In this document: positions 34,967-40,561 of the stretch, piece by piece
Numbering within the stretch: position 1 is the first letter of the stretch
Layout: each line of letters opens with the position of its first letter
NCBI GenBank assembly: GCA_000703065.1
Contig: JNLK01000001.1
Coordinates: 3,618,001 to 3,682,000 of the forward strand
Direction: 5' to 3'
Source of the DNA: Lachnospiraceae bacterium AC2029
Lineage (GTDB): Bacteria; Bacillota; Clostridia; Lachnospirales; Lachnospiraceae
Length of the DNA: 64,000 nucleotides
Notes under the pieces: generated by a model
What the model saw: only the letters and a program-made list of their open reading frames with translations
Database searches by the model: none
What the model was told of the DNA's origin: nothing
Program-made: the position numbers and the translations under genes

Positions 34967-36940
34967 ATGTTTGATTTTTATCGTATCGCAGCCGCAGTAC
35001 CCAGCGTAAAGGTGGCGGATGCAGCCTACAATACCGACCAGATCCTGGATCAGATGAAGGACGCCTGGGAATACGGGCCGGCCGTGGTCGCATTTCCCGA
35101 GCTTGCCGTATCCGGCTACACCTGTCAGGATCTGTTCTTCCAGCAGCCCCTGATCCGTGAAGTGGGGCAGGGCCTGTCCCGGATCCTTGCAGCCACCTCG
35201 GGGCATGAATCTGCCGTGGTCGTGGGCGCACCGGTGATGCTGTCCGGACAGCTTTATAACGGAGCCTTTGTTATGATGGACGGAAAGCTTCTGGGTGTCA
35301 CCATAAAGACCTTCCTTCCAAATTACAGTGAATTTTACGAGAAACGCTGGTTCAACAGTGCGGATGACCTTCCCTGCCGGGATGCATATCTGAGCGATCT
35401 GGGGATCAGCTTTGACCCGGAGGATGTGGATGATTACGCGGTTCCTGTCGGAAGTCATCTCATTTATAACCTGGACGGAAAGCTCCGATTCGGCGTGGAG
35501 ATCTGCGAAGACCTCTGGTCACCCATCGCACCCTCGGCAGTCATGGCGCTGGCCGGCGCCGAGCTGATCGTAAATATCTCCGCATCCAATGAACTGATCG
35601 CAAAACGTGAATACCGGAAGAATCTGGTGAAGCAGTGCTCCGCATCACACGTATGTGAGTATCTCTACGTGTCCGCAGGATCGGATGAATCCACTCAGGA
35701 TGTGATCTTCTCAGGTCACAGCCTGCTGGCGGAGAACGGAACTGTACTGAACGAGAACCGGGATTATATCGCAAATGATTATCTGCTTGTGGCTGATATG
35801 GATCTTGGGAAGATCCGCAGTGAACGTGCGAAAATGAAGTCCTTCGGGGATGCAGCGGCACATTACCGCGGTCTGGTGGCGCGCTGTCAGACGATCACCG
35901 AGGCCGCACCGGAGCTTCCGGAAAGTGACGGTTCCTATTATATCCTCCAGAAGCATCCCTTCGTTCCTACATCGAAATCAAAGCTGGCCAAGCGATGCTC
36001 CGACATTTTCGACATGCAGGTGGGCGGTCTGGCAAAACGCCTTTCCGTAACCGGATCCAAGCCTGTGATAGGCGTTTCCGGCGGAATGGATTCCACGCTT
36101 GCCCTGCTGGTTGCGGCCAAGGCACTCCGCAAGCTGGGACGGCCCGCAAGCGATCTGATCGCAATTACCATGCCGGCCTTCGGTACCTCCGGTCGGACCT
36201 ACAACAATTCCCTGCTGCTGATCAAAAGCCTCGGAACCGAGCCTGTGGTCATTGATATCAAGAAAGCCTGTGTCCAGCATCTGGAGGACCTGGGGCATGA
36301 CGGCGAAACCAAGGATATCACCTATGAAAATACCCAGGCCAGGGAACGGACCCAGATCCTTATGGATTATGCGAATATGCACGGAGGACTTGTGGTCGGT
36401 ACGGGAGACCTGTCCGAGCTGGCTCTCGGATGGTGCACCTACAACGGCGACCAGATGTGTATGTACGGCGTAAACGGCAGTATCCCGAAGACCCTGGTCC
36501 GCTGGATGATCGATGCGGTCGCGGAGACCGGTATCTTCCCGGACAGCACCGTAGTCCTGAGGGATATCCTGGATACACCCATCAGTCCGGAGCTTCTGCC
36601 GCCGGATGAAAACGGACAGATCACGCAGAAGACCGAGGACAGTGTCGGCCCCTACGAGCTGCATGATTTCTTCCTGTACTACACCCTGCGTTACGGCTAT
36701 TCTCCGTCGAAGATCAATCACCTGGCCAACCGCGCATTTAAAGAGGATTATGATCCGGAGACCATTCTGAAATGGCAGAAGATGTTTACCCGCCGTTTCT
36801 TCTCGCAGCAGTTCAAGCGGAGCTGTATGCCGGACGGCGTAAAGGTCGGTTCGGTGGCAATGTCGCCCCGGGGTGACTGGAGAATGCCCAGCGACGCATC
36901 GGTAACTGAATGGATGACAGAACTGGAGAAGCTGTCATAA
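34967..36940 (+). CDS. nadE: Glutamine-dependent NAD(+) synthetase
   Basis: It amidates nicotinate adenine dinucleotide to NAD. The 657-residue protein has an N-terminal nitrilase-type glutaminase (about 1-300) with Glu in VAFPELAVSGYTCQD, Lys in TIKTFLPNYSEFYEKRWF and Cys in GVEICEDLWSP, and a C-terminal synthetase with the PP-loop GVSGGMDSTLALLVAAKAL and GDLSELALGWCTYNGD. Full two-domain length is typical. Ribosome site CGGAGG before ATG 34967. Confidence 0.96.
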   Translation: MFDFYRIAAAVPSVKVADAAYNTDQILDQMKDAWEYGPAVVAFPELAVSGYTCQDLFFQQPLIREVGQGLSRILAATSGHESAVVVGAPVMLSGQLYNGAFVMMDGKLLGVTIKTFLPNYSEFYEKRWFNSADDLPCRDAYLSDLGISFDPEDVDDYAVPVGSHLIYNLDGKLRFGVEICEDLWSPIAPSAVMALAGAELIVNISASNELIAKREYRKNLVKQCSASHVCEYLYVSAGSDESTQDVIFSGHSLLAENGTVLNENRDYIANDYLLVADMDLGKIRSERAKMKSFGDAAAHYRGLVARCQTITEAAPELPESDGSYYILQKHPFVPTSKSKLAKRCSDIFDMQVGGLAKRLSVTGSKPVIGVSGGMDSTLALLVAAKALRKLGRPASDLIAITMPAFGTSGRTYNNSLLLIKSLGTEPVVIDIKKACVQHLEDLGHDGETKDITYENTQARERTQILMDYANMHGGLVVGTGDLSELALGWCTYNGDQMCMYGVNGSIPKTLVRWMIDAVAETGIFPDSTVVLRDILDTPISPELLPPDENGQITQKTEDSVGPYELHDFFLYYTLRYGYSPSKINHLANRAFKEDYDPETILKWQKMFTRRFFSQQFKRSCMPDGVKVGSVAMSPRGDWRMPSDASVTEWMTELEKLS

Positions 36941-36979
36941 CGAATCTGAAATGAGAAACCAGTCAGGGGGATTTCAAGT

Positions 36980-38371
36980 ATGAAAAATGTGATAGGTGTT
37001 CATTTCTGGGAGAAGAGCGCACGTATCTGTATCTGCGATGATTACAATATCTATACGGACACTATGGAGCTTCCCATGTCCATCCGGAATGCGGATGTGC
37101 TTCGGGATGAGAAGGCCTTTCGCCTTTCCTTCGAGAAGATCCATGCACATATGCAGGAGAATATGGGGATCTCCGACTTCGATCTGGTGCTTACGGTGCC
37201 GGATGATTACGGCCTCAGGGAATCCATGGAGCTGAGGGAGCTGGCAAAGTCCTGTGATATGGATCTGCTCCGTACCTATTCGGAGAGCATGTGCCTGGCT
37301 GCCTATGTAAATCAAGAATTCCGCGTGGAGAACGGCGTGACGATCCTGTCCGCATTTGTGACCGAGGACAGAGTTGGAATCGCCGGTTATGAAATGGGAG
37401 ACATCGTCCGCTGTCTGGAATCCGTGCTGGTAACGGAACAGACGGGAACCCGGGGAGTGCTTCCCCATATCCAGAAGGCCGGCCCTGAGCTTCTGTACCG
37501 ACATATGCCGGACGCCCTTTTCTTCACCGGCACCTTCAACGCGGGCATGACCTTCGAACAGGCCGCAACCGCAGGATTGGGACGAAGCGGTATAGATGTG
37601 AAGATGCTGGATGCCAAATGCGTGATCGAGGGTCTGGGATTCCTGTGCGGAAGTCTGGAGCAGCGTCCCGTGGCCGGGATCACCGACTTCAGGAGCATCG
37701 CCACACCGTATCCGCTGGCAGTCTCTGTAAACGGAGAGATCCGGATTTATCCGAAGGACCAGGAGTGTCCGGGAGAATTTTTCGGCGAACCGGATGTATT
37801 TCCTGAACCGGCAGACCAGAAGCCTCAGATCGCCCTGTTCGAGGAACGTCGCGGAAAGCTGATGAAGATTGCCGGAAATGCGCCCTCCCCGGATGATATG
37901 GATACCTTCCGGAAGAAGGAGATCCGTACCGGCATCCATGTGGACAGGGACGGTACCTGTTCCGTGATCCTTGAGGCGACGGAAAGCAGCAGAAAGAAAT
38001 ACTTTATCCTTGGACGGGAGGAAGAAGGCGCTGCGTCTGCCGCAAAGGAAGACAGCGTTGCCACATTTGCCGAAAATATCCTTCCCATCATAGACAATCT
38101 GGAATATGCCGCCAGATATGCGGAGGATGAAACAAATCCTTACGCACAGGGGATCAGGCAATCCTATCAGAAAGCGGTTCAGATCCTTGAGGAAAACGGC
38201 GTGACCCGGATCACAGGAGAGGGAGAACCCTTCGATTTCAACCTGCAGAACGCGGTGGCTCATGTGGTGGACGGAGATCTGCCGGAGAATACCGTGAAAC
38301 AGGTAATGCAGGCTGGTTATATGTATCAGGGCAAGGTTCTGCGCCCCGCACAGGTCATCGTGGCAAACTAA
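36980..38371 (+). CDS. Degenerate Hsp70 (NBD plus SBD-beta) fused to a GrpE domain
   Basis: The 463-residue protein ends in a clear GrpE head: ENILPIIDNLEYAARYA, GEPFDFNLQNAVAHV, ENTVKQVMQAGYMYQGKVLRPAQV (about 358-463), the domain that opens the Hsp70 nucleotide site. Before it lies an Hsp70-like part: VIGVHFWEKSARICICDD at the place of the phosphate-1 loop, DLVLTVPDDYGLRESMELRE resembling the ITVPAYFND segment, LFFTGTFNAGM at the adenosine motif, and a stretch like the substrate-binding beta domain (about 235-340, IHVDRDGTCSVILEA). Phosphate-1 and phosphate-2 glycines are lost and lobe II is short, so ATP hydrolysis is unlikely. The long GrpE coiled coil is missing. Start follows CAGGGGGATTTCAAGT. 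Function unknown. Confidence 0.8.
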   Translation: MKNVIGVHFWEKSARICICDDYNIYTDTMELPMSIRNADVLRDEKAFRLSFEKIHAHMQENMGISDFDLVLTVPDDYGLRESMELRELAKSCDMDLLRTYSESMCLAAYVNQEFRVENGVTILSAFVTEDRVGIAGYEMGDIVRCLESVLVTEQTGTRGVLPHIQKAGPELLYRHMPDALFFTGTFNAGMTFEQAATAGLGRSGIDVKMLDAKCVIEGLGFLCGSLEQRPVAGITDFRSIATPYPLAVSVNGEIRIYPKDQECPGEFFGEPDVFPEPADQKPQIALFEERRGKLMKIAGNAPSPDDMDTFRKKEIRTGIHVDRDGTCSVILEATESSRKKYFILGREEEGAASAAKEDSVATFAENILPIIDNLEYAARYAEDETNPYAQGIRQSYQKAVQILEENGVTRITGEGEPFDFNLQNAVAHVVDGDLPENTVKQVMQAGYMYQGKVLRPAQVIVAN

Positions 38372-38666: not shown

Positions 38667-39986
38667 ATGAATACGCCTAAAGGTAATCAGAAACACCTGA
38701 CATTGTCTGACCGGATCAACATTGAAAAGGGATTAAATAATGGAGACTCCTTTGCAACTATAGCAAGAGTGGTGAATAAGGATGCTACTACTATTTCAAA
38801 AGAAGTGAGAAAGCATTCTAAAGTCAAGGAGTATAAAGGCTTTGCCAATACGCCATGTGAAGCCAACAAAGATATACACTCGCCCTGTGGTATAAAACAT
38901 GTATGTGGAGATATAGAATGTAACCGCACTTGTCGACTGTGTAAGAAATACAGATGTAGTGATGTATGTAAGGCCTATCAGCCACAGCAATGCCCGAAGC
39001 TAAAGAAAGCCCCTTATGTATGTAATGGATGCGGCAAACGTGTGAATTGTATGATGGAAAAGAAGATTTATTCTTCGAAGTATGCAGAGGACTGTTATCG
39101 CGAAACATTAAGTTCAAGTCGCGAGGGCATCAATCAGACACCTGAAAGCATACAGAAGATGAATGATATTCTTACTCCACTTATTAAAAAAGGGCAATCA
39201 ATATCACATATATACGCAACGCATGCAGAGGAACTTGGATGCTCTAAAAGAACAACCTATACGTATATTGATTCCGGTGTGTTTGATGTCAGGAACATTG
39301 ATCTAAGGCGAAAAGTAAAATATAAGAAACGCAAGAAATCAACGAGTACAAGCGCTAAAAGCCGTGCATACCGTATCAACCATAACTATGAAGATTTTCA
39401 AAAATATATTGAAAAGAAAACCGATGTAAGCATCGTAGAAATGGATTGCGTTGAAGGAAATAAAGACGGCCATAAAGTTCTGCTGACTCTGACATTTCGC
39501 AAGACTAACCTGATGCTGATATTTCTTTTGGAGAATCAAACGCAGGAAGAGGTACTGAAAGTATTTAGCTGGCTTGAAGAAAAGCTTGGTACAGATCGGT
39601 TTAAAAGTCTTTTTGAAGTTATCCTTACTGATGGAGGCAGTGAATTCTCTGACCGTGAAGGAATGGAAACTTCACAAGATGGAAAAAAACAGAGGACAAT
39701 AGTATTTTACTGTGATCCGTATTCCTTTTGGCAGAAAGGATGCTGCGAAAAGAACCATGAGTATATCAGATATGTTCGTAAAAAGGGATCAACGTTTGAT
39801 GACCTGGATCAGAAGAAAATGACTATTCTGGCCAATCATATTAATAGCACAAAAAGAGACAGCCTGAACGGTCATAGCCCATTCGAACTGTCTCAGTTGC
39901 TTCTGGATAATAAGCTGTTATCGGTCATGAGATATAAGCTCATTGCTCCGGATGACGTTATACTTACTCCAGAATTATTAAAATAA
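38667..39986 (+). CDS. IS30-family transposase
   Basis: The 439-residue DDE transposase begins with an IS30 helix-turn-helix (HLTLSDRINIEKGLNNGDSF ... ATTISKEVRKH, about 10-52). A cysteine-rich insert follows (about 65-130: CGIKHVCGD, CRLCKKYRC, CNGCGKRVNC), likely zinc-binding. The integrase core shows VEMDCVEG (first Asp), ILTDGGSEFS (second Asp) and CCEKNHEYIRYVRKKGS (Glu), the usual IS30 catalytic triad and ending with INSTKRDSLNGHSPFEL. It is full length and looks active. AGAGAGGAAAG precedes the ATG. Confidence 0.95.
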   Translation: MNTPKGNQKHLTLSDRINIEKGLNNGDSFATIARVVNKDATTISKEVRKHSKVKEYKGFANTPCEANKDIHSPCGIKHVCGDIECNRTCRLCKKYRCSDVCKAYQPQQCPKLKKAPYVCNGCGKRVNCMMEKKIYSSKYAEDCYRETLSSSREGINQTPESIQKMNDILTPLIKKGQSISHIYATHAEELGCSKRTTYTYIDSGVFDVRNIDLRRKVKYKKRKKSTSTSAKSRAYRINHNYEDFQKYIEKKTDVSIVEMDCVEGNKDGHKVLLTLTFRKTNLMLIFLLENQTQEEVLKVFSWLEEKLGTDRFKSLFEVILTDGGSEFSDREGMETSQDGKKQRTIVFYCDPYSFWQKGCCEKNHEYIRYVRKKGSTFDDLDQKKMTILANHINSTKRDSLNGHSPFELSQLLLDNKLLSVMRYKLIAPDDVILTPELLK

Positions 39987-40071: not shown

Positions 40072-40199
40072 CCGGATATCCTTTTAGCATACTCAAAATC
40101 CGGAAAAAACCGTTCTGTAGGAACAATTATAACAGAAAAATCAAGAAAAACAAATGCGAAAGCAGACGTTAGTATCACACATTTATTGGATCCGCACGT

Positions 40200-40224
40200 A
40201 TGCGGAAGTTAATTCCGCATTCAA
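40200..40224 (-). repeat. IS right inverted repeat
   Basis: Reverse complement starts TTGAATGCGGAATTAAC and ends TTCCGCAT. Confidence 0.8.
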
Positions 40225-40225
40225 G

Positions 40226-40239
40226 TCCAATCATTCCTA
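40226..40239 (+). repeat. Target-site duplication, right copy
   Basis: TCCAATCATTCCTA, identical to 38524-38537. Confidence 0.9.
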
Positions 40240-40561
40240 TCATAGAGAACTCCTGTTCCGGGTATTACGGAGCAGAACAGCACTTACGATCGTGGGGCTT
40301 ACACTGATCATCATCGGCATTGCGGTCATTCTGTTCGGTCAGAATTCCGATACCCCTTCGGTAGAAGCGTCCACCGTCAAGCAGAAGTATTACACCAGCA
40401 TTGAGGTTGAGAACGGCGACACTCTCTGGTCCCTGGCGGAAGAGTACGGAGAGCGTTACCATGACCATGATGTTTTCATCAAGGAGGTTCGTTCCATCAA
40501 CAAGCTGGAGGGGGATCATATCACTGCGGGTGCAAGTCTGCTGATCCCTGTTTATCGTTAG
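40226..40561 (+). pseudogene. yneA: 3' part of the YneA-like LysM division inhibitor
   Basis: The sequence encodes SNHSYHRELLFRVL, a membrane helix (ALTIVGLTLIIIGIAVILFG) and a C-terminal LysM domain (YTSIEVENGDTLWSLAEEYG ... GASLLIPVYR). This layout, its size and the LexA boxes at the original promoter fit YneA, the SOS-induced suppressor of division in Firmicutes. The frame is open back into the IS to an ATG at 40154, which would give a 135-residue fusion (MRKQTLVSHIYWI...), but no good ribosome site or clear promoter is seen before it. Function probably lost. Confidence 0.85.

Follow-up and report, generated by a model that had tools for sequence, protein, structure and literature searches.

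A pseudo-Hsp70 joined to a GrpE head is conserved in a group of gut bacteria and may be an unusual helper of Hsp70

Locus and gene neighborhood

The window (the whole stretch of 64,000 nucleotides analyzed here, bases 3618001-3682000) belongs to the genome of Lachnospiraceae bacterium AC2029, which is 3.86 Mb long, assembled as a single contig, and 100% complete. One of its genes encodes a protein in which a degenerate Hsp70, or pseudo-Hsp70, precedes the head of the exchange factor GrpE (Table 1). The nucleotide-binding domain (NBD) retains the IA and IIA core, with a shortened IB, apparently no IIB, and no ATP motifs, and it is followed by the beta part of the substrate-binding domain (SBD-beta). 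The linker after SBD-beta occupies the place of the long N-terminal helix of GrpE and lacks the N-x-R-x-R motif of that helix.

Table 1. Features of the fusion locus and of related genes; positions are those of the window unless another contig or locus is named.
Feature	Location	Strand	Basis
NAD+ synthetase-type gene (nadE)	34967..36940	+	PF02540 and PF00795
Shine-Dalgarno-like AGGGGG, 9 nt 5' of ATG	36965..36970	+	Read by eye
Gene for the pseudo-Hsp70::GrpE fusion, 463 aa	36980..38371	+	ORF
Degenerate Hsp70 NBD, residues 1-235	36980..37684	+	AlphaFold2 models, structural alignment, motif counts, spacing
Hsp70 SBD-beta, residues 236-345	37685..38014	+	ATP-like Hsp70 chains remain aligned up to and including residue 345
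Linker, residues 346-358, low confidence	38015..38053	+	AlphaFold2 pLDDT <50 at 348-358
GrpE head (two bundle helices and beta-wing), residues 359-463	38054..38368	+	PF01025
LysM ORF	40154-40561		
Fusion paralogue (L003), window's genome	C1:771692-773158	-	PF00012 and PF01025 matches
Mini pseudo-Hsp70 without GrpE (L160), 350 aa, window's genome	C1:1079989-1081038	-	PF00012, 29.6 bits
Acid-linker variants	L064 711-2771; L065 4937-6961	+	686 and 674 aa

The fusion gene begins 39 bp after nadE, with which it is possibly cotranscribed; an upstream nadE was seen in no subclade but the window's own. Neighbors differ between subclades and no chaperone neighbor is shared across them, which speaks against an operon partner that would reveal the function. 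No CIRCE element was found within 400 bp upstream of the fusion in any of 36 regions, with up to 5 mismatches allowed; the control was the exact CIRCE of the grpE-dnaK locus, and 2 of the 38 members were excluded for having too little upstream sequence. Judged by its surroundings, the fusion gene appears to stand alone, and nothing points to control by HrcA. Downstream, between 38380 and 40561, an HTH_38 ORF (38667-39986), which we take to be an IS30-type transposase, lies between four LexA-box-like sites (38388, 38410, 38440, and 38476), presumably an SOS promoter, and the LysM ORF, presumably YneA-like, as if the insertion had separated the promoter from its gene.

The Hsp70 part and the GrpE head

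GrpE is the sole Pfam domain of the window protein, which has no Hsp70 match, and the Hsp70 model was detected in 1 of the 38 fusion members, under the cut-off. The match of the fusion profile to Hsp70 in hhalign was weak (probability, 32% and 41%; E values, 5e-4 and 3e-4). The sequence of the window protein alone is insufficient to settle its Hsp70 identity, and it is the predicted fold, together with a paralogue described below, that settles it. Given 38 homologues, mostly close, AlphaFold2 modeled the entire protein with a pLDDT of 86.4 and a pTM of 0.70, and residues 1-345 alone with values of 91.5 and 0.90. When the whole model was searched with Foldseek, 48 of the 50 matches listed were titled Hsp70, Hsp110, or their complexes (E values, 2e-17 to 3e-11); the remaining two, ciliary central-pair chains, we take to be Hsp70 as well. 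VIA-align placed residues 1-345 on 17 rows of Hsp70s in an ATP-like state, among them 7krt, 6asy, 5e84, and 4b9q (Z, 21.6-25.0; 322-329 residues; rmsd, 3.9-4.2), and on the Hsp110 protein Sse1 (2qxl; Z, 23.5; 315 residues across both domains; rmsd, 4.6). A sequence-only reading of this DNA had recognized an Hsp70 NBD and SBD-beta, in order, over residues ~1-340, and these alignments, along with the PF00012 match of the paralogue, bear it out, the predicted fold being that of an Hsp70 even where profile comparison stays weak.

Matches to the NBD by itself are less telling. Alignments to 2v7y, 7o6r, and 4ani_C were confined to residues ~1-234 or less (Z, 15.8-17.0), isolated Hsp70 and Hsp110 NBDs matched the fusion NBD at Z 15.6-17.6, and ParM, a plain actin-like protein, reached Z 16.0 on the NBD alone, so that it is SBD-beta and its placing that mark the protein as an Hsp70 and not another protein of the actin fold. 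The two domains are modeled in an ATP-like docked arrangement, as in ATP-bound Hsp70 or Hsp110; which of the aligned PDB chains are docked is in part our assumption. This docking belongs to the model and does not prove a nucleotide-like state, since the model was built from mostly close homologues and 5obu (DnaK with AMPPNP) aligned over residues 1-233 only, that is, over the NBD. The residues of the peptide-binding pocket of SBD-beta have diverged past the point where an alignment can judge them.

The fusion shares with DnaK and other Hsp70s the NBD core, the SBD-beta fold, and the order of these domains but differs from them in its ATP motifs, in sub-domains IB and IIB, in its interdomain linker, and in the lid. 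The phosphate-1, phosphate-2, and adenosine motifs occur in 0 of 38 fusion members, against 16/16, 16/16, and 15/16 control Hsp70s, and the position that by eye corresponds to D8 of DnaK is an invariant histidine (H8, 38/38). Measured against the DnaK of the same genome, the spacing of landmarks is ~45 residues shorter in the IB region and ~85 residues shorter in lobe II, the latter about the length of IIB; these losses presumably correspond to IB and IIB themselves. The loss of the phosphate loop and of much of lobe II, both suspected from the sequence, is thus upheld. A loose pattern for the hydrophobic interdomain linker was found in 4 of 38 members compared with 15 of 16 control Hsp70s, and inspection found no such linker in the corresponding region of the window protein. 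In the models the SBD-alpha lid is missing, with SBD-beta leading directly into the linker and the GrpE head, and by eye there is no clear retention of the residues that dock J-domains.

The GrpE head, by comparison, is readily recognized. It passes the Pfam cut-off of 25.8 with 107.3 bits (PF01025; E, 8.5e-31; residues 351-462) and aligns with E. coli GrpE (1dkg_A) at Z 15.5 over 104 residues with an rmsd of 1.9, confirming the head domain that had been proposed at ~358-463. PF01025 matches all 38 members (E up to 1). Mean pairwise identity among 35 sequences is 0.69 in the head, 0.42 in the NBD, and 0.29 in SBD-beta, making the head the most conserved part of these sequences, as if its partner were conserved too. 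Bundle helices are conserved in the fusion alignment, and the beta-wing is likewise rich in invariant columns.

The head departs from canonical GrpE in that it has neither the motif of the long N-terminal helix nor a free N-terminal tail, the pseudo-Hsp70 being there instead. The N-x-R-x-R motif is present in 46/46 canonical GrpEs and in 0/40 fusions (last 125 residues), as counted with a wider pattern, a narrower one having caught 30 of the 46 canonical GrpEs. Four near-invariant positions of canonical heads are also altered: R376 is mostly Y in the fusions, H423 mostly Q, K445 mostly T, and M458 mostly S (column counts cover 36 of the 40 fusions, L003, L064, L065, and L103 being excluded). 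These group-wide shifts suggest that the head is under constraints of its own.

Published mutants of the Mycobacterium tuberculosis proteins (PMC10803776) offer a weak check of the residues on the IIB side. There, a DnaK IIB patch opposite the GrpE head (Mut-2) was required for GrpE binding in vitro, and GrpE Mut-2 (D110 and P115) lowered exchange; P115 corresponds to P387 of the fusion, where P occurs in 97% of 36 fusions, and D110 corresponds to a position that varies in the fusions and in canonical GrpEs too. R169 corresponds to Q444, a position occupied by Q in 100% of fusions and in 98% of canonical GrpEs. In the same study, GrpE Mut-3, in the beta-sheet, had little effect, and the alanine substitutions of Mut-1, in the long-helix region, left almost no exchange, strongly reduced DnaK binding, and did not support viability (PMC10803776). 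The missing helix motif is the strongest result against a plain exchange-factor role for the fusion.

Distribution, selection, and related pseudo-Hsp70s

A full-length, stop-free fusion is encoded in 37 of the 61 genomes of the genus (36 besides the window's), so that the domain order first seen here recurs widely within it. Among the 33 genomes of at least 90% completeness, 21 carry the full-length fusion and 12 do not, and canonical GrpE was full length in 19 of those 21; of the other two, one has a fragment, and in one none was found. The window's genome also has a normal, separate locus, with canonical grpE at C1:3169812 beside dnaK at C1:3170375 and an exact CIRCE upstream. This matters for one objection raised along with the sequence-only reading, that the fused GrpE might be the sole grpE, joined by assembly error. 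The objection fails, given a separate grpE and the recurrence of the fusion in 36 further genomes of this genus; we regard an assembly or annotation artifact joining two genes as refuted: the genome is a single contig, the same architecture recurs across the genus and in a paralogue, and all three domains are under purifying selection, as judged from their sequences. For 13 of the 14 close pairs listed (of 29), dN/dS lies between 0 and 0.26 in each of the NBD, SBD-beta, and GrpE parts, with a range of 0.26-0.58 for the remaining listed pair; the set excludes L083, L100, L103, and the linker.

Beyond the genus the fusion fades quickly. A scan of 397 genomes (334 genera) of the family, in which at most four candidates were scored in most genomes, placed the window genome best (E, 3e-183) and all others at 5.5e-33 or weaker, which is the strength of the GrpE domain alone. 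Among 24 genomes belonging to the order's other families we found the GrpE part at most and no fusion. A PF01025 search of 398 genomes of the phylum considered the best matches listed, a scope that leaves room for diverged fusions elsewhere. A scan of 84,980 species genomes with two GrpE-head peptide patterns, which reach close relatives only, returned 37 full-length relatives and one GrpE-only locus. These relatives are titled Lachnospiraceae, Eubacterium sp., Clostridiales, or Clostridia, and 7 of the 38 titles mention the rumen, omasum, or abomasum; the fusion is a conserved protein in a group of gut bacteria. One of the relatives (L103) is only 26% identical and may lie outside the genus, so the restriction to one genus is not strict. 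In a tree of GrpE heads, built from few columns and with tool warnings of long branches and unsettled bootstrap, 37 fusions, including L103 and the paralogue, fall on one side of a branch with support of 99/95.

The paralogue, in the window's own genome, passes the Pfam cut-offs for both parts, with 25.0 bits against 20.6 for HSP70 (residues 214-340, the SBD-beta region) and 77.8 bits for GrpE, and its phosphate-1, phosphate-2, and adenosine motifs are absent. Its sequence provides independent support for the Hsp70-GrpE architecture. It lies (also as L012, 6690-8261) between a Fic-like ORF and a short RtcB-start-like ORF, both labels being assigned by eye, and near AAA and helicase-like ORFs, with no chaperone neighbor seen.

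Related genes extend this group. A mini pseudo-Hsp70 without GrpE occurs in 13 of the 61 genomes, the window's included, with a weaker second locus in one; it matches the fusion profile with a probability of 96% over 294 columns, and the ATP motifs are absent from 13/13. Two genomes of the genus encode acid-linker variants, in which a diverged and possibly Hsp70-like N terminus (12%, a weak match to Hsp70) is followed by a long glutamate-rich linker and a GrpE head; these heads fall outside the fusion clade, and the AU test does not reject a single origin (p, 0.327).

Setting actin-like proteins aside, we count six genes of Hsp70 origin in the window's genome, and three of them are without ATP motifs. 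Two loci in it deserve separate mention. At C1:1745.0-1748.9 kb (L014 5009-8916) an 825-residue Hsp70-NBD protein is immediately followed by an AAA ATPase and then by two ORFs, and at C1:2503.9-2508.7 kb (L013 3947-8699) a 1023-residue TPR protein, with an N-terminal DnaJ match slightly under cut-off, precedes a 565-residue Hsp70 that is HscC-like by eye.

Possible roles of the fusion

The sequence-only reading had presented the protein as an Hsp70 fused to its own exchange factor. An Hsp70 served in cis in this way is suggested by the domain content only; the ATP motifs are missing from every member and, by spacing, there is no IIB to grip, and we reject this arrangement as very unlikely and close to refuted. 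In a comparison of four NEF types, GrpE included, all touch sub-domain IIB of Hsp70 (PMC2940730). Because the Hsp70 part has no nucleotide motifs and seemingly no IIB, it leaves the GrpE head nothing to exchange in cis, and we infer that the head most likely acts in trans on DnaK, encoded elsewhere by dnaK. E. coli HscC is described as without the GrpE signature (PMC8215388), which makes DnaK the likeliest partner.

We tentatively favor, with somewhat less than even confidence, the reading that the fusion is an ATP-independent, Hsp110-like co-chaperone that serves the ordinary DnaK of the cell. The protein would pair with a second copy of itself through the bundle helices of their GrpE heads, the beta-wing would contact lobe IB/IIB of DnaK and loosen ADP, and the pseudo-Hsp70 would be placed where the long helices and tails of GrpE normally reach the substrate domain of DnaK; so placed, it might hold, receive, or pull on the client. 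The overall action would be like that of eukaryotic Hsp110, an Hsp70-shaped exchange factor, carried out with other parts and not by a member of that family. PMC12915176 reports that GrpE N-terminal tails bind the DnaK substrate site, and a review holds that structural evidence is lacking for the tails contacting the substrate domain (PMC12987570). For this co-chaperone reading we count the docked fold, the loss of ATP motifs, the conserved GrpE head, and the coexisting canonical grpE; against it stand the loss of the helix motif, the shifted head positions, the lack of both a CIRCE and a shared chaperone neighbor, and the 12 of 33 genomes of at least 90% completeness without the full-length fusion. 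The earlier suggestion that the protein captures DnaK fits within these considerations as a possibility, weakened by the absence of the long-helix motif of GrpE.

Two other roles have to be weighed against that of a co-chaperone. The GrpE head could be merely a dimerizing handle for a two-armed, ATP-independent holdase or scaffold that does no work on DnaK and whose clients are set by the fast-changing substrate domain. Such a handle would agree with the loss of the long-helix motif and the conservation of the bundle helices, with SBD-beta being the most variable of the three domains, and with the existence of the related mini form that has no GrpE, but the beta-wing, presumably dispensable for dimerizing, also has many invariant columns, and we consider this role unlikely. 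The fusion might instead brake or tune the DnaK system, competing with GrpE or joining canonical GrpE in mixed dimers with one long helix, and so slowing or redirecting exchange. Canonical GrpE does coexist with the fusion in 19 of 21 near-complete fusion genomes, and the head retains the GrpE fold but not the helix on which full activity depends; Sse1 in excess is inhibitory, and mild inhibition is reported for GrpE in excess (PMC12305717). A brake, however, leaves an Hsp70 body with a substrate domain under purifying selection unexplained, and the shifted head positions may prevent mixed dimers, so that we judge this role rather improbable.

Among known systems, Hsp110/Sse1 resembles the fusion in having an Hsp70-shaped body, and the two align across both domains. 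Hsp110 binds ATP, and it is through its own NBD and helical bundle that it takes hold of Hsp70. The fusion, unlike Hsp110, has neither ATP motifs nor a lid, and its grip would come from the GrpE head. Ssz1 of the yeast ribosome-associated complex is an atypical Hsp70 that serves as a co-chaperone, and its NBD matches that of the fusion at Z ~16 (6sr6 and 4gni), but its partner is a J-protein and not a GrpE head. Hsp110 is proposed to act as an exchange factor and entropic puller, and its origin from an Hsp70 is placed in the first eukaryotes (PMC12305717). A bolder version of our favored reading, which we consider doubtful, would have bacteria independently building an Hsp110, in which a dead Hsp70, always in the docked state, holds or pulls clients and is tethered to working DnaK by a GrpE head in the place of the lid, as part of a broader local expansion of Hsp70s without ATP in the genus. 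Under that same doubtful proposal the expansion would take in the fusion and its paralogue along with the acid-linker variant and the mini form that has no GrpE.

If the co-chaperone reading is true, the fusion represents a second route to an Hsp70-shaped co-chaperone, through an ATP-less Hsp70 body joined to a GrpE head, and it is also a natural test of the role of the GrpE helix and tail, both of which are replaced in it by another possible substrate-binding body. The component families are known and their combination seems new. A literature search, with most subscription papers and all bioRxiv preprints outside its scope, found no Hsp70-GrpE fusion described, and the terms "fusion" and "fused" are absent from two reviews, of bacterial Hsp70 (PMC8215388) and of GrpE-like factors (PMC12987570).

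One further gene, in another genome (G816, contig 1, ~1292 kb; locus L193, 1387-3483), is like the fusion in having GrpE and Hsp70 share an open frame but unlike it in the order of the parts, in the presence of ATP motifs by eye, and in having turned up in a single genome. In this frame GrpE comes first and is joined through a junction of about seven residues to an apparently intact DnaK. The joined frame represents a natural GrpE-DnaK fusion or else results from a sequencing slip; the genome is a single contig, and the GrpE frames listed for four other genomes of its family are 206-213 residues long.
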